A stretch of DNA of 46,337 nucleotides from Leucogyrophana mollusca (lineage: Eukaryota > Basidiomycota > Agaricomycetes > Boletales). The stretch spans positions 1 to 46,337 of the forward strand of contig MU266555.1 of the NCBI GenBank assembly GCA_021014945.1. Reading direction: 5' to 3'. The first letter of the stretch is position 1; every line of letters starts with the position of its first letter. This document shows, piece after piece, positions 1 to 45,288 of this stretch. A program made the translations under genes and the position numbers. Below the pieces are notes generated by a model. It saw only the letters and a list, made by a program, of their open reading frames with translations, did no database searches and was not told the DNA's origin.

Positions 1-1391
1 GAGGGTGACACGTGTCCAGTCACACATTTACAATCTATCCCCGAGTTCTCCCCCCAATCTGTGGCAACCGCGAAAAGGGCTGTGCCTCTGGTGAGAAGGA
101 AGTCGAACAGCTTGAGGATGCCCTGGAGGGGGAGAAACGGAAAAAAGAAAATATCCAACGCAGGATCGATCTCGATGTCAAATCGTCCCAGGAGACCTAT
201 CATCGTCCCCTACCCGCCAACGCAGTCGCAGGACCCTCCCGTCAGCCGTACGACAACCCCTACTCTACCCATTCTAGAGAATTCGGTAATAAGTGGTCGT
301 TTTCGTTTTCCCCACACAATCGCAACGAAGATTCGCACAACTACGATAAATCTGCTGATCTAGCAGAGTGGATGCAACTGGAATCGATCCGAGCTGATGG
401 AAGCGTCGAGCTTGCATCCCAGCTCCAGAGCGACTTTGACAGAGAAGATAGGCATCTTCGTTCGCAGAGGGAGGACCTCGCGTATACCGTCCAGACTCTC
501 TTTCAGTGTGGGATCTGTTTCGACGAACTGCCCGAAGATGACGTGATGCGCCTTGAGCTGTGCAGACATCCCTTCTGCAGGGGGTGCATGAGAGGTTACA
601 TTTCGAGCAAGCTCGACGAACATCGCTTTCCGATTCTTTGTCCTACGTGCGCCACCGACAAGAGCCAAGTAAATCCTGGAGGTGCGTTGCATCGGCTTCC
701 AGATACATTGGCTGACGTACGGCATGTTGTCCAGTCGTCACAGGCGCGCTAGTGCAAATGATCGGTGTATCCGAACAGCAGTATGAAGTTTGGGTCGAGA
801 TGTCAATGATTCAGTTCTCAGTGCTCCTCCACTGTCGAAAGTGAGTAAACGAGTATTCGAAGTCAAGTTCTGGCTCATTATACCTATCCTCAGGTGCCAG
901 CGATCGGCATTCGTTGACCGTCAAGATCACGAAGATACACGGACGCTCGTCTGCCCGCTTCCGGACTGCGATCATATATGGTGCAAGGCCTGCCAGCAGT
1001 CCATTACCATCGGCGGACCCAAACATTCGTGCGACGGTTCGTCAGAGCTTGACCACCTGATGAAACAACGAGGATGGAAATACTGTCCGAGTACGTCCCC
1101 TTCCTCACCAAAAAAGTCCTCGTTCATGGAAACCTCTTCATAGGTTGCAAGACACCCATCCAGAAAGAAACGGGTTGCAATCATATGACGGTGAGCTAAC
1201 CTTCATCTTGGTTCGGCAATGCTGACTGGTCTGTAAAGTGCATGTCCCCAGGATGCAATACGCACTTTTGCTACCGCTGCGGGGGGCTAATCATTCAGTC
1301 TGCCTTGCAAGCAGAGATTCAGTCTTCGATTTCGGCTCACTATCGGCAATGTGCTTTATTTGAGATACCTGACCCCGATGTAGCACCATAG
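1..1391 (+). CDS. RBR-type E3 ubiquitin ligase, 5' end missing (copy 1)
   Basis: RING1-IBR-RING2 ubiquitin ligase that should take ubiquitin from an E2 and pass it through a RING2 cysteine to a substrate. Readable exons are about 70-681, 735-840, 894-1090, 1144-1190 and 1239-1391, all joining in frame. A charged coiled-coil stretch comes first, then RING1 (CGICFDE near 510, ending CPTC), an IBR (HCRKC, WCKAC) and RING2 starting SCKTPIQK, with the CNHMT|CMSPGC segment that holds the likely catalytic Cys and then HFCYRCG. The protein ends DPDVAP. It closely resembles the complete copy at 1676-3952, with identical intron positions. The first 70 bases do not resemble that copy and there is an in-frame stop at 6-8, so the N-terminal part is either outside the window or lost. 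Family call is firm; integrity is unknown. Confidence 0.8.
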
Positions 1392-1675: not shown

Positions 1676-3952
1676 ATGTCGAATAGCACGGGCATCAAGC
1701 CGAATACTAACACACGAGACACGCTTGTGGAGATGATGTCGGGAAAAGAGCACGTCGTCTCGCACGATGGCACCGGGCAATTTGGTGGTCGGGATGTCTC
1801 AGGAGTCTCTGCTTGCGGGCTGGCAGCATTGAATTTCGCAAGGATAGTTTTTGAGAAAGAGAAGAAAGGAGGAGAGTCCACGGAAAGTCTGCTCAGCGAA
1901 ATCACAAGCAAAGAAACATTGGAGGTCCGTGTTTGTGCCATGCAGTCGTGTAAGCGCCCGTCTCGGCAGGAACGTCTTCTCACGTTTCGCCTGTAGGAGA
2001 TCACGTCCATCTGCGCCAGATGGTCAAGCGAATTACACCTGGAAGTTGAAGACATATGCCGCATTCCACTGTTCGACAGGGCTTTGGAGCTAAAAAGGAC
2101 ACGGTATGGTCGCCCCGGTGTTGAGCACTTCAGAAAGCTTTTGGGGTGAGTAACACCCACATTCAAATTCCATAAACCTAAGATACTGGCATGTCTTCAG
2201 CAAAATGCAGTCTATCGCTTCCTCTACATTGGCCGTGATCACCCGTCCTCCCGAGATCATTGCATGCCTGAAGCTCGCCACTTTTGCCACGGACGTGTTC
2301 GTGATCTTCGACTCCCACCCGAGACCCGATCACCCGGGTGGTGCAGCTTTGATCCTCAACACATCAATCGCACACACTGCCACACGACTAGCCAGTATTC
2401 TTCCCGTCGACAATCGCATGTTATCGGAGGAAGACTTACAATGGCAGGCGCAGTTACTTGCGAATTTCTCGGCGCACATCTTCGTCCCCAAGAACCCGGA
2501 TACAAGCCCGGAAGGGATGACACAAGCAGTCGTTGAATCTAGTCTCGAGGTGCTCTCCTTACAGGCTGAGGTCGCGGAACTAAAACGCAAGAGTTCAGCC
2601 CTCGCATCGGATAATCAGCGCTTGGAGAAGGGGGCAGAACAGCTTGAGGACGCGCTTGTGGAGGGACAGCGGAAGAAAAACGACTTGCAGCACAAGATTG
2701 ACCTCGAAGCTAAATTCTCCCAGAAGGGCTCCAATCGGCCGGGGATTGTGAACGCAGTGGCAGGACCCTCCGGTCTTCCATACAACCACTCCGGTACCCT
2801 CGACTCTGAAGCAGGCCAAGGCCCCAGCGATTGTTGGCCCTGTTTGCCTCCTCCACAGCATCTTATGCGCGCTCCCCACAACCGCCAACAGGCCGATGAC
2901 GCGGCTCCAGCAGAGCCGATGCAACTGGATCCGATAGGAGCTGATGAGAGCGCCAAGCTCGCATTCCGGCTACAGTGCGATTTCGACAGAGAGGATTCAT
3001 CTCTTCGTTTGCAGATGGAACAGCTTGCGAAAACCTCGCAGAGTCTCTTCCAATGTGGGATATGCTTTGAGGAACAGCCCGAAGATTTCGTCATACGGCT
3101 CGAGGCTTGCGGGCATCCCTTCTGCAGGCCATGTGCGAGGAGTTACATTGCTGGTAAACTGGATGAACACCGCTTCCCCATTTTATGTCCGACCTGCTCG
3201 GCAGAAAAATGTCAAAACGATCCGGGAGGTGCGTAGTTTCGGTGACATGCGAGATTAACTGTATTGAACCAGACGCGTGCGCGTTTTAGCCGTTACAGGG
3301 TTGCTCTTACAGCAAATCGGCATCACCGAACATCAGTTCGCGGTTTGGTTGGAGATGGAAATGGTCCGGTTTTCAGTGCTCCTCCATTGCCGCGGGTGAG
3401 TATTCGACATGTAACTTATAAGGAGACCCCATTCATCTTTGGTCTAGGTGTAAACGCTCTGCATTCGTTGACAGACAGGATCACGACGCGACACTAACGC
3501 TTGCATGTCCCCTGCCCAACTGTGATTATGTTTGGTGCAAGGCTTGCCAGCGGTCCATCACTACAGGGGGACCAGAGCATTCGTGTGACGGCTCGTCCGA
3601 GCTGGACCACCTGATGAAGCAAAGTGGGTGGAAGTATTGTCCGAGTAAGGCAATCCCATTCTTGTAGTGACCTATCTGATGGCCGATGCTACCAGGCTGC
3701 AGGACACCTATTCAGAAAGCCATGGGATGCAACCATATGACGGTATGCCTATTTCTGATTACATCGAACACTTTATTCAAGCCCTGTTCGTTCAAGTGCA
3801 TCTCTCCGGGATGCAACACCCACTTCTGCTACCGCTGTGGAGAGGGTATTGTCCGGTCCGCCTTGCAGAAAGACATCAAGTCGGCGATATCAGCGCACTT
3901 CCAACGGTGCCGGCTCTTTGAAGACGTTCCCGACCATGGGGTACCACCGTAA
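1676..3952 (+). CDS. RBR E3 ubiquitin ligase with N-terminal putative cysteine-protease domain (copy 2)
   Basis: Complete seven-exon gene: 1676-1924, 1997-2145, 2201-3228, 3290-3395, 3448-3644, 3696-3742, 3797-3952, summing to 643 residues in frame. Residues about 30-200 hold SACGLAALN (Cys47, with Gln35 upstream) and FDSHPRPDH (Asp170, His172). Residues about 260-320 are a Glu/Lys-rich coiled coil. The last 230 residues are an RBR module: RING1 from CGICFEE to CPTC, IBR with WCKAC, and RING2 from SCRTPIQK through CNHMT|CISPGC to HFCYRCG, ending HGVPP. The RBR part predicts ubiquitin transfer through a RING2 thioester cysteine. The N-terminal Gln/Cys/Asp-x-His pattern is my inference of a deubiquitinase-like papain fold. 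The first intron needs a GTCCGT donor at 1925; the better-looking GTAAGC at about 1950 would create a stop. Copies 1 and 3 show local duplication. Confidence 0.82.
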
Positions 3953-3956
3953 TTCA

Positions 3957-6345
3957 CTGCATACACGTGGAATTTGAACCCATTGTTCACGGAAGGGCGG
4001 GTCACATAAATACGGCCCACCGGAGATGCTGATAACAATCAGAGAGCGAAGTAGCAGTCGTAGAGGCATTAATAAAATATAAGTTAACTGCAGAAAACAC
4101 CAAAATAAACGTTCGTCAAATGGGATAAATGACAACGTCAGAACCTTCCGCCGTAGTAGCCACCTCATGCCCACACATTCACCTTTCAGATGAGGACCCG
4201 CGTTCCCATTTTTCCCACTGGTTCTACGACCACGACACTTTACTTCGGGAGGTCGTGTCACGGTTCGGAGGTTCAAATTGAAGAGGGGACACATGGAATG
4301 CCGTCAGTTCCATGGACCGCCCATCTTGGCCACTACTCCTGTAGAAGGCATCACGAAGGCTGAGCAGCATCTTGCTTGCCATCAATGGGGGTAGAAGTAT
4401 CCCGTAAGGTATTGCAGCTTCGACCAAGGTTGACTGAAAGTATGTTGGTAAGAGTGACGACGAACAATGCGGGTCTAACCCACCGGTTCCCAGTACCACA
4501 CAACAGCATTGGCTATGTATACGGCATTGATGCTGGACAGATAGATTCAGCGAAAGTCAATATGATGAGCAACCGTCAAACATACACGACAAAGTAAATT
4601 ATCGAATCTCGGACAAGTAGGTTCCCGAGACGCTGCCCCGTCATCCCAGACACTACTGTTACATTTTGTTGGCGGAAATTGTGCCACCCTTTGATGAGCA
4701 TCAGCACCAAAAGCGTTGTTTCGAAAGCTAGAATTGGTAGCCAGTATGCGGCAAAATACCTTCCCTTGCGATGTCAGGCGACACTTACCAAAGAGGTTCA
4801 CAGACATACGGGGGCAATGTCATCGAGCAAACAACAAAACCAGGAGCGGGCTGTGCAAGTGCTGAAGATAATTTCGAATTAGCCGACATTGATGGGGCAA
4901 TAGAGGGCAATAGAGTGAAGCATACCAGGCGCGTAGTTCAAGCTTTTGAACATGATGAAGGCGCTAGCAATGATCTGTAGCGTCCCGAGCACGGACATAG
5001 ATACGAGGATCAAACGACTGCGCCCGTACATCGCCCAGAGACGGATCACAAGGATTGCTAAGAGGGCGTCAATAGTGTCTGGAGAAGCTCATATAACAGT
5101 TCACCGACTCTGGACAACGATAAGTATAACCAGCGCTGTTCCACTCTGAAATTTGAACCAATTTCCACCTGCAGGCCATAGGGGGGTCAATAACTGGGAT
5201 TCGGAGGTAAAATATACCCCCACATCTAAAAAGATACATCAGCATGAGCGGTGGGTAGAATGGTAGAACCTACAGCTAAGCAATACATCAGCTGACGCCA
5301 ATAATTAGAGACTGATGACCTACCGAGTTCCCTAGATTGGTGCCTTGATACAAGAACACTGGTTAAATTGCTTCAGCACACCTCGACAAGATCGAGAACG
5401 TATGTCACTTGCCGCTGGAGTTGAACCTGAAATATCCACCAATCGTAAGGTCTTTAGACTTTGAACGGGGGAACGCGATAAATCACCCACAGGCCCTCGA
5501 GTAGCGCGAGGCAGCGGTTCTGTAGCCACGCAGATGCTGTTAAAACCTGCATCATGCCTGACCTCAAACATTTCGATCCTCACTATGATATACAGCACTT
5601 TGATGAAAGACCAGGGCCGGTTCTAAAGCACACAAATGAGATGACGGAGAAATATTGCTATTTGACGTGTCATGGCTAGTCACCCAAACTAGGTCGACCT
5701 GCGCGGCAAGGGCATCGGTCAGCGAGGTCAGAAAGACACAGTTTTCGGTTCAACCTCTTTGTCTAACGTTGTCACTGCATAAAGGGGAAGTCTGGGTAAA
5801 GAACTGGAATGCGGGAGTGAACTCCTTACCGAGGTCATAAACATAGAGGACTGTCATGGCCACTATAGCAGGTGGGACGTTAGTGGGAGATCCGAGTGGA
5901 ACAATGAAACGCACGTGTGTTGTACCTCGACATCGCTGTATTCCTGACCTCCGACGCAATCTCGTTTAGGGCGGCAGACGGAAGTGCAGAAACGGCCATG
6001 GCAAAGTTCTGCGGTGGTGAGCTGAGTGGGGGGACGAAGGAGGAGGCGAATAACGAGACATGGCCAATTCGATGACCAATAGAAGGCCGACGAACGGAGG
6101 GTATCATGGTCAAATCCAGTGAGGCGGTTCGGGTAAGGGTGAATCGGGACCCTCAAGCACAAGCTGATGGGCACCGCCGAAGTAGGAAACTCTCGTAGTT
6201 CAGGATCATTGAATCTAAAGCTGACAAGGGACTTATGGAACGCCTTTGGCCCGCATCTTGTTTCGAGTGACGAGAGATAAGATTTTGCTCTGTGGTGTTT
6301 TTAGAGCACCCAGATCAAGAGTGACCTAGAGCGGTCCAGCCAGAC
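3957..6345. repeat. Left arm of a ~2.4-kb inverted duplication
   Basis: Its reverse complement aligns with about 10,768-13,262. The match starts within a few bases of the stop codon of the RBR gene (the AATGGGTTCAAATTCCA segment, minus strand) and ends near 6345 (GAGCGGTCCAGC segment). It spans one DUF6533 gene with its 5' and 3' flanks. Divergence is moderate and includes small indels, so the duplication is not recent. Boundaries are by eye, within tens of bases. Confidence 0.85.
4224..5999 (-). pseudogene. DUF6533-family multi-pass membrane protein, decayed copy A
   Basis: Minus-strand paralogue of the gene at 11,140-12,950. It begins MAVSALPSAALNE at 5999 and keeps the DUF6533 core read across small exons (MTVLYVYDL, TTLDKEV, DLVW, NRPWSFIKVLYII). 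Two lesions are visible against the other copy. A 3' splice site reads ATG instead of AAG (plus-strand bases about 5237-5239). The last exon has one extra base (the AAA at about 4436-4439), which shifts the frame before the conserved EAA.PYGILLPPLMA segment; that segment is still readable in another frame down to a stop at 4224. The family is of unknown function, expanded in mushrooms, with about seven transmembrane helices. A sequencing indel could mimic the frameshift; the splice-site change is independent of it. Confidence 0.6.
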
Positions 6346-10384: not shown

Positions 10385-10706
10385 CATTTAGCCGCCACAG
10401 TATTACTTATCCAACAAATCGGCACCACTGACCATCAGTTCGCGCGTTGAGATGGAGATGGTCCAGAAAGATACGGGATGCAACCATATGACGGTATGCC
10501 TACCCCTATGTACATTGAGGACTCTATTCAAGCCCTGTTCGCTCAAGTGCATTTCTCGGGGATGCAACACCCACTTCTGCTACTGCTGTGGAGAGGGCAT
10601 CGTCCGGTCTGCTTCGCTGAAAGACATCAAGTCGGCGATATCAGTCGCCCATTGCCAACGATGTCGGCTGTTCGAAGACATGCCCGACCATGGAGTACCA
10701 CCGTAG
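10385..10706 (+). pseudogene. RBR E3 ligase remnant with internal deletion (copy 3)
   Basis: Bases 10,385-10,465 match the RBR exon that begins at 3290 in copy 2 (GCCACAGTATTACTTATCC, GACCATCAGTTCGCG). They are fused directly to the RING2 exon that starts at 3696 in copy 2 (AAAGATACGGGATGCAACC). About 340 bp holding the IBR exon and adjacent introns are missing. The RING2 tail is still readable: CNHMT, then after an intron CISRGCNTHFCYCCGEGI, ending PDHGVPP. One RING2 residue has changed (CYRCG to CYCCG). With no RING1, no IBR and no N-terminus it cannot make a working ligase. Confidence 0.85.
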
Positions 10707-11139
10707 TTTACTGCACAGGCCGAACTCGAAAGGAGCAACTCGCCTTACTCCACAAAATGCTCAGATCTAGCTGGACCGCTCTGGGCCGCAGCTCACGCTT
10801 GATCCGGCTACTCCAGAAACACTACAAGCACCCTGTCAAGCAAATTCCCATCTCTGGTCACTCGAAGCAAGATGCGGGCCAAAGGCGCTCCAAAATTCCT
10901 TGACCAGCTTTAGATTCCATTATCCTGAACCACGAGAGTTTCCCATTTCAACGGCGTTGCCCACCACCTTGTGCTTGGGGTCCCGGTGCACCATTACCCG
11001 AAGCGCCTTGTTGCGGACTTGACAATGTCTACCATACCTCCGTCCGCCGGCCCCCAATTGGCCATCGAATTGGGCGCGGGCCTCGTTACCCCCCTGCTCC
11101 CTCGTCCCCCCACTTAGCTCATCACTGTAGAGCTCTGCT
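10707..11139. other. Intergenic; 5' flank of DUF6533 copy B
   Basis: Bases 10,707-10,767 link the RBR remnant to the inverted-repeat arm. From about 10,768 the sequence is the reverse complement of the 6000-6345 flank and should contain the promoter of copy B. No open frame of note. Confidence 0.55.
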
Positions 11140-13262
11140 ATGGCTGCTCCTGCACTTCCGCCCGCCGTCTTGAACGAACTTATTTCGGAGGCCAGGAATA
11201 CGGCGATGTCGAGGTACAACACGCGTGCGTTTCATTGTTCGGGAACCCACTCGGTTCTCCCACTGATGTCCCGCCTGCTATAGTGGCCATGACGGTTCTC
11301 TATGTTTATGACCTCGGTAAGGAGCTCATTTGTGCATTTTAGCTGTTTAACCAGTCCTCCCTTTTGTGCAGTGACGACGTTAGACAAAGAGGTTAGACCA
11401 AAGTCCGTATTTTTCTGACCTCACTGACCACCGCTCTTGCCGCGCAGGTTGACCTTGTTTGGGTTAGTAGCCATGACACGTCAAATAGCAATATTGCACC
11501 ATCATCTCATTCGTGTGCTTTAGAATCGACCCTGGTCTTTTCTCAAAGTCCTATATATCATAGTGAGGATCGAAGTATTTGAGATCAGAAGCAGGTCTGA
11601 ACAGTATCTACGTGCTTTCAGAACCGCTGCCTCGCGTTACTCGAGGGCCTGTGAGTGATTTATCGCGTTCCTCCATTCAAAGTCCAAAGACCTTACGATT
11701 GGTGGACATTTCAGGTTCAACTCCAGCGGCAAGTGACATACGTTCTCGATCTTGTTGGGGTGTGCTGAATCAATTTAACCAGTGTTCTTGTATCAAGGCA
11801 CCAATCTGAGCAACTCGGTAAGTGATCAGTCTAATTATTGGCCTCAGCTAATGTCTTATGTAGCTGTATGTTCTACCGTTCTACCCACCACTCACGCTGA
11901 AGCTTCTTTCCAGATGTCAGGGTATATCTTACCTCCGATTCACACCCACTGACCCGCCGATGGTCTGCAGGTGGAAACTGGTTCAAATTTCAGAGTGGAA
12001 CGGCGCTCGTTCTTCTTGTCGTTGTCCAAAGTCGGTGACCTGTTATATGAGTTTCTCCGGACACTATTAACTCCCCATCAGCGATCCTTGTGACTCGTCT
12101 CTGGGCGATGTACGAGCACAATCGCCCGATCCTGATATCTATGTCCGTGTTCGGGACGTTACAGATCATTGCTAGCGCCACCATCATGTTCAAAAGCTTG
12201 CGCTACTCTCCTGGTATGCTTCACTCTACTGCCCCATCAATATCAGCGAATTCGAAATTATCTTCAGCACTTGCACAGCCTGCTCCTGGTTTTGTTGTTT
12301 GCTCGATGATACTGCCCCCGTATGTCTGTGAACCTCTTTGATAGAGTGCTGCCTGACATCGCAAGGGAAGGTATTTTGCCGCCTACTGGCTACCAATTCT
12401 GGCTTTCGAAACAACGCTTTTGGTGCTGATGCTCATCAAAGGGTGGCACAATTTCCGCCAACAAAATGTAACAGGAGTGTCCGGGATGACGGGGCAGCGT
12501 CTCGGGAACCTACTTGTCCGAGATTCGATAATTTACTTTGTCGTGTATGTTTGACGGTTGCTCATCATATTGACTTTCGCTGAATCTATCTGTCCAGCAT
12601 CAATGCCGTGTACCTAGCGAACGCTGTTGTGTGGTACCGGGGGGCGGTGGGTTAGACCCGCATTGTTCGTCGTCACTCTTACCAACGTACTTCAGCCAAT
12701 CTTGGCCGAAGCTGCGCTACCTTATGGGATACTTCTACCCCCATTAATGGCAGGCAAGTTGCTACTTAACCTTCGCGATGCCTTCTACAGAGGTAGTGGC
12801 CGCGAGGAGCGGTCCACGGAACTGACGACGTTCCGTGCGCCCGCCCCTCGACTTGAACCGTCGAACCGTGGCACGACCTCGCGAAGTGCGGTGTCGCGGT
12901 CGCAGAGCCAGTGGGAAGAATGGGAACGCGGCAACCCATCTGAATGGTGAAAGTGTGTGGGGGGTAAGGTGGTCGCTACGGCAGAGGGCTGACTTTGTTA
13001 TTCATCCCAATTTGAACGTTTAGTTTTCTGCGGCTATACAGTTGTAATGTTGTTGCATCCTTCATGTCCTGCACACGTTGTTAATGAATATTGAATTCTG
13101 AAGCCTGGCGTGCTACGGATGCATTGCCACCACGCTCAAATTTTACATAATGACATCATATATGGCTATGGCTTTGCTCCCTGGTTCTTACCAGCATCTC
13201 TGATGGGCCGTATCTCTGTGACTCGCTTTTTCTGTGAATAGTGGGTTCGAATTCCATGCAGC
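10768..13262. repeat. Right arm of the ~2.4-kb inverted duplication
   Basis: Reverse complement of about 3957-6345. It covers DUF6533 copy B, its 5' flank, and a 3' flank that ends with GTGGGTTCGAATTCCATGCA, the counterpart of the sequence next to the RBR stop codon in the left arm. The two arms enclose about 4.4 kb with the DUF6535 gene and the RBR remnant. Confidence 0.85.
11140..12950 (+). CDS. DUF6533-family multi-pass membrane protein (copy B, open)
   Basis: Function unknown; a mushroom-expanded family of roughly seven-helix membrane proteins. Thirteen exons join in frame to 351 residues: 11140-11224, 11284-11316, 11372-11391, 11448-11462, 11524-11562, 11622-11650, 11715-11728, 11783-11817, 11903-11921, 11971-12030, 12082-12319, 12371-12544, 12656-12950. 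Core motifs read LAMTVLYVYDL, VTTLDKEVDLVW, NRPWSFLKVLYII, a Cys followed by NWFKFQS, ILVTRLWAMYEHNR, FETTLLVLMLIKGW, LLVRDSIIYFVV and TLTNVLQPILAEAAL. The intron 11,729-11,782 uses a GCAAGT (GC-AG) donor, conserved in copy A. Exons of 14, 15, 19 and 20 nt make the model fragile. Details around 11,818-11,970 and the last intron are least certain; an extra small exon within 12,545-12,655 is possible. Confidence 0.72.
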
Positions 13263-41219: not shown

Positions 41220-44200
41220 ATGCTTGGCGACTTGGAATCCACCGAAGGAAAGATAGAACTCTCGCTCACAGGTACGCGGAGAGATTGGGCGAGTTTCTCA
41301 GTCCAAAACTTACGGGAGCTGTTGCAGTCATCGGAGCCACTGGATTGTCTCTGTCCGATGATGACCACTCGACGGGCTTCTATGTTGTCGTCGAGGTGGA
41401 CGGAAAGAAAGGACGGACAGCCGAGCTAGCACCCTCGCCTCAGTCAACCATCGAATGGAACGTTTGTTTTCCACTGTAAGTGTTCTCGACTAAGCATCTG
41501 CACGTAGCCTGACCATCTCGGTATGAATCCAGGAGAGCGGACAAGGCGTCATACATTGCGCTTGGTTTGTACGAGTGCGGGAAAGTGGGGGTCCCGGGCA
41601 ACTCGAGAGGAGACAAGGCAATATGGGAATCGAGAGCTACTGCCAAGCAGCTGCTGGGATCCGGTAGCAAATTTACAGGTGCATCACCCCTCACTGTTGC
41701 CGTGATGCCCAGACTGATTTTTCTCCCTAGATATGACTCTCCCGGCGAGAGCACCCTACGAAGAAGGCCATCTCTTTGTGAAAGTCGAGCGAGTTGCACA
41801 TACCGAAGCTGAACGGGTCGTTGTTAGCGAGGTACATGATTCATTCGATCTGCACTGTCAGTACTGACGGGGACACTGTTTCTTCTAAGAGCTCGGCCAA
41901 CCCTCGGTGGCAGGGCGAAATGCGGGAGCTGGAGCCTTCAGCTGTGCGCTCCGTACATGAGTTTGCCCGCACCATATGTTCCGATCTCACGGAGAGCCAC
42001 CATAGAGATAAGCTGGAGGAGGCAATTGATTGTCATCGTGTCTCGCTCGGTTTACGTCCACCGGGGCACCCCGAACGCTCATTTTCGCTAGCCTGCCTTG
42101 CTTCCACCCTTTTTACTCGGTTCAAAGAGTTCGGTGACAAAGCCGATCTGGACGAAGCCATCGAGCTCGATCGTGAAGACCTTCTTTTGTGCCCACAAGG
42201 GCATCACGGTCACTCTTTGTCCCTGGACAACCTCGCCCTCACCCTTTCCGCACGATTCAAACAGGTCGGCAACAGAGCCGACCTGGACGAAGCCATAGAG
42301 CTCAATCGTGCAGCCCTCGCGTTGCGGCGACCAGGGCATCCCGAACGCTCCGCATCGCTGATCCGCCTTGCTTCCACCGTTTTCACACTATTCAAACAGG
42401 TCGGCAACAAAGCCGACCTGGACGAAGCCATGGAGCTTGAACGCACAGCCCTAGCATTGCGTCCACCAGGGCACCCTGGTCGTTGCATGGCCCTGAATAG
42501 CCTCGCTGGGACTCTTTCGACTCGATTTCGCCAGTATGGCGACAGAGCCAACCTGGATGAAGCCGTCGAGCTAAATCGCGCAGCCCTGGCGTTGCGTCCA
42601 CCGGGGCACCCCAATCATTCCATGTTCCTGAACAATCTCACTAGCACCCTTTCTACTCGATTTCGGCAATTCGGCGAGAGAGCCGACCTGGACGAAACCG
42701 TCGAGCTAAATCGCGCAGCCCTGGCGTTGCATCCACCAGAGCACCCCAATCACTCCATGTTCCTGAACAATCTCACTGGCACCCTTTCTACTCGATTTCG
42801 GCGGTTCGGCGAGAGAGCCGACCTGGACGAAACCGTCGAGCTCGATCGGGCAGCCCTCGCGTTGCGTCCACAAGGTCACCCCGATCACCCCAAGTCCCTG
42901 AACAACCTCGCTGTCACCCTTTCTACTCGATTCGACCACTTCGGCAACAGAGCCGACCTGGACGAAGCCATGGAGCTCAATCGCGTCGCCCTGGTTTTGC
43001 GTCCACCAGGGCACCCCGATCACTCCAAGTCCCTGGTCAACCTCGCTTCCACCCTTTACACTCGATTCAGACAACTTGGCGACAGAGCTGACCTCGACGA
43101 GGCTATGGAGCTCGAACGCGCAGCCCTGGTGTTGCGTCCACCAGGGCACCCCGATCGCTCCATGTCCCTGAACAACCTCGCTGACACCCTTTCGACTCGA
43201 TTTCGCCATTTTAGTGACAGAGCCGACCTCGACGAAGCCATGGAGCTCAATCGCACAGCTCTGGCATTGCAGCCACAAGGGCACCCCGCTCGCTCCATGT
43301 CCCTGGACAACCTTGCTGACATTCTTTCCACTCGATTCGACCACTTCGGCAACAGAGCCAACCTGGATGAAGCCATCGAGCTAAATCGCGCAGCCCTGGC
43401 GCTGCGTCCACCAGGGAACCCTCATCGCTCCAGGTCCCTGGTCAACCTCGCTGACACCCTTTGCACTCGATGTCGCCGGTTTGGCGACAGAGCCGACCTA
43501 CACGAAGCTATCGAGCTAAATCGCGCAGCCCTGGCACTATGTCCACAGGGGCACCCCGATCGCTCCATGTCCCTGATCAACCTCGCCATCACCCTTTCCA
43601 CTCGATTCAAACAATTCGGTGACAGGGCTGATCTCGATATCACTTTCCAGTACCATGAACTAGCCTCCACTGACATAAACTCCAGTTCATGGGACCAAGT
43701 TAACTACTCGCTGACATGGATTCAAGCAGCAGAGACATTTGATCACGTTTCTGCATTGAACGCCTACAGAGTATTCTTCAGCAATCTCGACCGCCACGCC
43801 ATCTCAAGGTTGTCCATTGTATCGCGCCACGAACTTCTCAAAAGTATCTCCCCCTCCTTAGCCGCCAATGGTGCATGTTGCGCTCTTCGTCGAAACGAGC
43901 CTGCCACTGCAGTGGAACTACTGGAGCAGGGAAGAGGAGTAATATGGACACAGATGGCAAACCTCCATACGCCTCTCCAGCAGCTTTCTGATGCGAATGC
44001 ACAAGGCCAGATGCTGGCAGAGGATCTTCAGCGAATCAGTTCGGAGCTTGACAGGTCGTCTGGAAGGCTGCGGGATGACGAAAAGAGTAGTTCTCGCGAT
44101 GAAGAAATACGACGTCACCACCGCCTGGTCGAAGAATGGGACTCCGTTGTGTGCAAAGTACGACAAGTGCAGGGTTTCTCTCGGTTTCTGTTACCTCCGC

Positions 44201-45288
44201 TCTACTCTGACCTCCAGCAGGCTGCCATTGAAGGTCCCGTCATTGTGATCAATGCCAGCAAATATTCCTGCGATGCACTTATTATTCTCCGGGATGGTCC
44301 TCCGCGTCATGTACCCCTTGGAGATATCACTCTGGGAGATGTTGCTCAATTGGAGTCGGATTTCGCTCGCGTATTGAAGAGTCATTCAAATTCTAGTGTT
44401 GCTGGGCACGAGAACGGCAGGCGGGATGAGCTATTCTCTCTACTACGATCGCTTTGGGATCTCATCGTGCATCCCATCGTCCATGCTCTAGGGAGGATTC
44501 AGGTCCCAGCGGCTTCGCGGATCTGGTTGTGCCCCACATCCAAGTTCACATCACTGCCGTTGCATGCTGCCGGTCCATACCGCAAGGGCAAGTTGGGCCT
44601 GTCCGATCTATATATCACGTCCTACACCCCAACACTGTCGGCCCTTGTCAGGGCGAGGAGAAACAACCACGCGGCCCCGACGATCACTCCAGAGTTCGTC
44701 GCAATCGGCCAAGCAATGCCTAGTAATGGAAGTAATGAAAAGGAACTCCTCACAGTGAATGCAGAACTCGACCTCGTTCTGCGCCAATTGCCATCATCTG
44801 TGCCTTCTACGCGTTTAGCCGATACTGCTGCCACCAAACGCGCAGCACTGGACGCTCTCTGCAAGAACTCTTGGGTTCACCTTGCTTGCCACGGTAAACA
44901 AGACACGGCTCAGGCTTTTAACTCGTGTTTTTCCATGCACGACAAGCCCCTCTCCCTTCTCGACATCATTCGCGCCGATATCTCTCGCCCAGAGTTCGCG
45001 TTCCTCTCCGCCTGTCACACTGCTGTCGGGGATGCGAAAACACCGGACGAGGTGATCCATCTAGCTGCGGGGATGCAGTTTGCGGGATTCAAGAGCGTGA
45101 TTGGGACGATGTGGGCTGTCGACGATGGGATCGCTCACCACATGGTCTCGGCGTTCTACAATAACATGTTCGAGCACGGGATGGACTACACGAAGGCGGC
45201 GGCGTCACTGAACATAGCTATGCGGACGGTGGACAAGAAAGCAGTCCCCCTCGAGCAGAGGATTGTGTTCGTTCACATTGGGGCTTGA
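41220..45288 (+). CDS. C2-like / TPR repeat / CHAT caspase-like protein
   Basis: Putative protease of the caspase-like clan, of the kind linked to cell death or proteolytic signalling. Exons 41220-41271, 41328-41475, 41533-41678, 41731-41831 and 41890-45288 give 1281 residues in frame. Residues about 10-150 look like a C2 domain (KIELSLTVIGATGLSLSDDD, FYVVVEVDGKKGRTAE, ASYIALGLYE, GHLFVKVERV). Residues about 190-730 are twelve 45-residue repeats of the form ADLDEAIELNRAALALRPPG followed by HPDRSMSLNNLADTLSTRFR, the TPR_10/kinesin-light-chain type. Residues about 930-1281 form a CHAT domain with VHLACHGKQ (His about 1150) and FAFLSACHTAVGD (Cys about 1191), the expected catalytic pair, plus LAAGMQFAGFKSVIGTMWAV. 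The intron 41,832-41,889 has a TACTGAC branch site. The target is unknown; TPR arrays usually bind partners and C2 domains often bind membranes. Confidence 0.88.
42011..43630 (+). repeat. Twelve in-frame 135-bp tandem repeats
   Basis: The LDEA-coding position recurs at 42,011, 42,146, 42,281 and every 135 bases to 43,631, with no gain or loss. Each unit encodes one 45-residue TPR-type hairpin. Two adjacent units (about 42,598-42,732 and 42,733-42,867) differ at only a handful of positions, so copying between units is recent. Confidence 0.93.

Follow-up and report, generated by a model that had tools for sequence, protein, structure and literature searches.

Erven et al. 2022 (PMC9741609) have described, in the Discussion of their paper, a mushroom fusion between a viral tegument-like deubiquitinase (VTD) domain and an RBR ubiquitin ligase, which they call 'a single protein'. 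Literature searches on the VTD-RBR fusion and on the VTD family name found no other description. In that work the VTDs of Serpula lacrymans (Sl-VTD) and Serendipita indica (Si-VTD) cleave K6-linked di-ubiquitin specifically, fungal VTDs do not react with ubiquitin or ubiquitin-like probes, cleavage of Ub-AMC is mostly absent, and the biological role of K6-specific VTDs is called enigmatic. We have analyzed a stretch of 46,337 nucleotides (the window), which a genome-wide search maps to positions 1-46337 of contig C229 of Leucogyrophana mollusca, the entire contig. The window carries a complete VTD-RBR gene, copy A, and directly upstream of it one half of a second gene, copy B.

The fusion in copy A is real. 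The kind, distribution and in vitro specificity of such proteins are published, and copy A is a further example. A preliminary description of this DNA had regarded such a fusion as lacking an established account, a view that the Discussion of PMC9741609 overturns. Copy A equals the Agaricomycete proteins of S. lacrymans and S. indica in domain combination, triad type and fungal class; the Serpula protein in our searches (P0002), likely the tested Sl-VTD locus, is 58% identical to copy A over the VTD part. Unlike the usual Agaricomycete case of one gene, the Leucogyrophana genome has two, the second broken by a transposon. The contribution of the locus is modest: a corrected gene model for copy A, a genome carrying two paralogues rather than one, and in copy B a transposon insertion that recently separated the two enzymatic parts.

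Gene model of copy A

1676..3952, plus strand: VTD-RBR gene copy A, from the ATG at 1676 to a stop codon ending at 3952; 643 residues with no internal stop
1676-1924, 1997-2145, 2201-3228, 3290-3395, 3448-3644, 3696-3742 and 3797-3952, plus strand: the seven exons
1925-1996, 2146-2200, 3229-3289, 3396-3447, 3645-3695 and 3743-3796, plus strand: introns, GT-AG

An alternative acceptor for intron 3 would give a 640-residue version whose ligase half lacks three residues; the homologues P0001 and P0002 and the deposited model rule it out. This 640-residue version was the query for the Pfam scan, the homologue search and the genome search; its VTD part is the same as in the 643-residue model.

The deposited model of copy A, P0064 (BV22DRAFT_1073245), has 509 residues and agrees with ours at the intron 3 acceptor. 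It starts at Met135 (MQSIASS) of the 643-residue model, downstream of Cys47, and hence lacks both Gln35 and Cys47. If it were right, the first two exons would lie outside the gene and the protein would have no deubiquitinase. This we consider highly improbable, since exons 1 and 2 extend the family alignment (P0001, P0002) and the deposited model of the paralogue, P0121, retains the corresponding exons. Furthermore, copies A and B are identical at 68.5% of 232 aligned VTD residues (within 1-240), with nonsynonymous divergence (dN) of 0.24 against saturated synonymous divergence (dS).

Active site and conservation of the VTD domain

1742..2507, plus strand: VTD domain, residues about 23-235, exons 1-3, placed by alignment and by the fold of a homologue model
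1778..1780, plus strand: Gln35, which we take to be the oxyanion-hole glutamine
1814..1816, plus strand: Cys47, predicted catalytic nucleophile of the VTD
2310..2318, plus strand: Asp170-Ser171-His172, the D-x-H of the VTD triad (Asp170 at 2310-2312, His172 at 2316-2318)

The homologue search, in which residues 1-240 were scored, returned 248 proteins at E <= 0.001, of which 120 were listed. Conservation was assessed in an alignment of 121 proteins, that of copy A and the 120 matches listed, to which all of the following counts refer. Gln35 is Q in 118 of 121 rows with a gap in the other 3, that is, in all 118 rows covering the position. The same holds for Cys47 (C 118, gap 3), where one of the gaps is P0064, the truncated model of copy A itself. 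Asp170 and His172 are each present in 121 of 121, and the residue between them is serine in 111 and threonine in 10. Copy A therefore has the Cys ... Asp-x-His catalytic triad of VTD deubiquitinases and, because these four residues are conserved across the alignment, its active-site motif is not a chance pattern. The preliminary description had placed Gln35, Cys47 and Asp170-Ser-His172 in the first three exons, with numbering that is exactly correct. It had also named free variation of Cys47 and His172 as an observation that would refute its reading; the counts show no such variation. In the published definition the D-x-H is invariable in the VTD triad, whose role was probed by mutation in DrT1-VTD2 and Wc-VTD1 (PMC9741609).

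A VTD fold could in principle have been kept only for binding ubiquitin, as a pseudo-enzyme; the gene product would then be an RBR ligase equipped with an arm for binding ubiquitin. Likely inactive VTDs do occur in insects, and fungal VTDs are poor on single-ubiquitin substrates (PMC9741609). However, a triad retained in every one of the listed matches that covers it, together with the cleavage of K6 chains by two fungal VTDs (PMC9741609), makes a pseudo-enzyme very improbable here.

Fold and class of the VTD domain

Since the spliced protein of copy A is not a contiguous translation, structures were predicted from alignments of 60 and 55 sequences, headed by P0007 and P0001 respectively and hand-picked from the 120 homologues listed, and the P0007 model was used in the fold searches. 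Foldseek alone ranked M48 (2j7q), the herpesvirus large tegument deubiquitinase, first. After realignment, the three VTD entries and M48 rank first, and the papain-like fold of the homologue model is superposable on the VTD structures. These results, with the invariant triad, support the papain-like fold shared with herpesvirus tegument deubiquitinases that the preliminary description had proposed; it had assigned those enzymes to MEROPS family C76. Sequence identity to the homologue model is about 11% for M48 and 14% for the bacterial protein Wc-VTD1 of Waddlia (PDB 8adc, 8adb), for which the available parts of PMC9741609 mention no RBR ligase. Herpesvirus tegument deubiquitinases favour K48, in contrast to the K6 specificity of the published fungal VTDs (PMC9741609).

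The domain might instead belong to another papain-like class of deubiquitinase (OTU, UCH or Josephin) or be a YopT-like protease. In the realigned comparison, however, AvrPphB trails the four VTD structures by 4.9 to 7.5 Z units. The domain also has the D-x-H arrangement of VTDs, whereas YopT-like enzymes have the conventional order Cys-His-Asp (PMC9741609). We regard assignment to one of these other classes as extremely improbable. A VTD profile search of proteins returned 230 at E <= 0.01; the 7 that carry species names among the 120 listed are all from fungi.

Coiled coil and ligase module

2508..2693, plus strand: predicted long helix (coiled coil) linking VTD to RBR, with limits transferred from homologues
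3054..3838, plus strand: RBR ligase module (RING1-IBR-Rcat), placed by Pfam, by ligand counts in RING1 and Rcat and by the middle IBR columns
3797..3799, plus strand: Cys593 in the motif GCNHMTC, first codon of the last exon, numbered 590 in the 640-residue version, presumably the catalytic (thioester) cysteine of Rcat

Both homologue models contain a long coiled-coil-like helix, at 230-289 of P0007 and 230-299 of P0001. Pfam matches above the cut-off are zf-C3HC4 on RING1 and IBR_2, IBR_1 and IBR with their best stretch on Rcat; the zinc ligands of RING1 and Rcat are present, by these matches and by per-site counts in the alignment. The middle IBR received no Pfam stretch of its own in the scan of the 640-residue version; its Cys and His columns are invariant or nearly so in the 55 homologues headed by P0001. 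At the column of Cys593, 104 of the 121 rows have a residue, which is C in all but one (103 rows); the exception has Q, and the remaining 17 rows are gapped. The three gapped rows examined (P0001, P0002, P0021) are deposited proteins that end or leave the family earlier, and the single Q is P0007, which likewise ends or leaves the family before reaching it. The helix of the homologue models and the Pfam matches agree with the order VTD, coiled coil, RBR given in the preliminary description. As in the Agaricomycete fusion, copy A places a VTD and an RBR on the same polypeptide in a mushroom-forming fungus.

Probable activities of the fusion

We consider it almost certain that copy A is the Agaricomycete VTD-RBR protein of Erven et al. 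2022, in which the VTD would cleave ubiquitin chains and the RBR would attach ubiquitin. The earlier proposal of a deubiquitinase fused to an RBR ligase gains support from the fold ranks, the invariant triad and fungal homologues that are proven deubiquitinases (PMC9741609).

Several points weigh against this assignment. The evidence assembled here consists of sequence, the fold class of homologues and conserved active sites; the structure was predicted for homologues and not for the spliced protein of copy A. The link to the VTDs comes from comparison of predicted folds only: a PDB sequence search with residues 1-233 gave one unrelated match (E 0.71), a ten-member VTD profile (A3) against PDB gave no sequence at E <= 10, Pfam placed no family on the domain (0 of 10 members matched), and the top 50 of Foldseek lacked the 8ad VTD entries, which were seen only after realignment. 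In the published work too, reaching the fungal VTDs took staged hidden Markov model searches via bacterial members (PMC9741609). Finally, the fungal VTDs are weakly active, Si-VTD having needed 5 uM, and the assays, in the parts of PMC9741609 available, concern VTD domains rather than the ligase half.

In the proposed working of the VTD, Cys47 would attack the isopeptide bond, His172 and Asp170 would assist, and Gln35 would be the probable oxyanion partner; the chains hydrolysed would most likely be K6-linked. RBR ligases pass ubiquitin from an E2 via RING1 and a catalytic cysteine to the substrate. In copy A, RING1 would take the E2, and ubiquitin would be transferred onto Cys593 and then to the substrate. 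The coiled coil joins VTD and RBR and may dimerise them. We infer that both domains of copy A are active and act on the same substrate; two such activities on one chain would suggest editing or trimming of the ligase product, or a guard against self-ubiquitination. Since fungal VTDs are unreactive with probes and mostly leave Ub-AMC uncleaved, an assay with either could give a false negative, and K6-linked di-ubiquitin would be the right substrate.

Copy B and the transposon that apparently split it

96..1391, plus strand: RBR half of copy B, exons 96-681, 735-840, 894-1090, 1144-1190 and 1239-1391; 362 residues, no internal stop
Contig C387 1332-345, minus strand: copy B, VTD half with Gln, Cys and Asp-Ser-His retained; 275 residues as far as the break
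1..93, no strand assigned: end of the DNA transposon that interrupts copy B; its exact inverse lies across the insertion, at C387 252-344
94..96, no strand assigned: 3-bp target duplication AGA, whose partner flanks the element on C387

A transposon appears to have interrupted copy B within its coiled coil, with both halves still open. The gene halves meet at the same residue and the duplication AGA is common to both, from which we infer that a single insertion separates C387 from C229. The RBR half retains its zinc ligands and catalytic cysteine (alignment, by eye). The VTD half is deposited as a gene of its own, P0121 (BV22DRAFT_1199753), of 294 residues, extending into the transposon end.

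The 92-base transposon end occurs at 12 places in the genome including the window, 11 with 100% identity across 1-92 and the twelfth with 100% identity across 2-92, on contigs C229 (window), C387, C260, C240, C215, C189, C119, C536, C474, C101, C78 and C60. Because the ends are identical, the sequences suggest that the element was recently active. Five of the 12 (C229, C387, C260, C189, C474) lie less than 251 bases, or at 251, from the contig start. On that side all eight loci retrieved, including four of those five contigs, stop within 251 bases in the manner of a contig end. Each of the eight runs on ...CCTCTGGTG into unrelated flanks; the multi-copy transposon probably broke the assembly at these apparent contig ends. 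In the other six retrieved flanks, complementary 3-mers were seen at C536/C119 and C260/C189 and none at C240 and C215. The terminal CACCA and the 3-bp duplications recall CACTA-type DNA transposons.

Attaching and removing ubiquitin in one protein is unusual, and K6-linked chains are poorly understood. The fusion might be a self-contained writer and eraser of K6-ubiquitin, in one polypeptide across the Agaricomycetes. Because the fresh transposon split copy B in the coiled coil, leaving an intact VTD half on its own and an RBR half that lacks the VTD, Leucogyrophana could then serve as a natural experiment. We offer this as a tentative proposal that is rather unlikely to hold.

Age and selection of the duplication

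In a maximum likelihood tree of 42 VTD domains, copy B groups with Hygrophoropsis (97/91) and copy A falls outside that pair (86/75). For this reason the duplication seems to predate the divergence of Leucogyrophana and Hygrophoropsis, although the support of 86/75 is moderate. Beyond the VTD values given above, identity between A and B is 72.2% over 227 residues of the RBR (dN 0.17, dS again saturated) and 49.3% over 134 residues of the linker (dN 0.39, dS 0.87). With synonymous sites saturated and nonsynonymous change low, both copies have evidently been under purifying selection for long outside the linker.

At least seven species occur twice among the matches listed: Gyrodon lividus, Russula earlei, Armillaria luteobubalina, Mycena indigotica, Gloeopeniophorella convolvens, Pisolithus marmoratus and Hericium alpestre. 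All but Gyrodon form sister pairs in the tree (6 of 7). Since several genera were represented by that one species only, such a pair could consist of alleles, of young duplicates or of duplicates common to a genus. With species that have two copies, 'a single protein', as worded in the Discussion of PMC9741609, appears to be a rule with exceptions.

Other features of the genome and contig

10464..10703, plus strand: stray duplicated 3' end of the VTD-RBR gene, covering the end of Rcat and corresponding to residues 588-640 of the 640-residue version

Positions 10464-10644 match 3713-3893 of copy A with 87% identity; the genome search with the 640-residue version found no other part of the gene alongside. 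Contig C219 holds nothing of this ligase beyond a decayed RING1 fragment at about 5082-5415, part of which contains stops. The window also contains a large inverted duplication (4172-6289 / 10839-12957) in blocks of 82-96% identity, within which a minus-strand frame may encode a fungal multi-pass membrane protein, DUF6533-like. An open reading frame of 1164 codons at 41794-45288 carries 135-base (45-residue) repeats at 42004-43653, followed by a region that resembles a CHAT protease-like domain.
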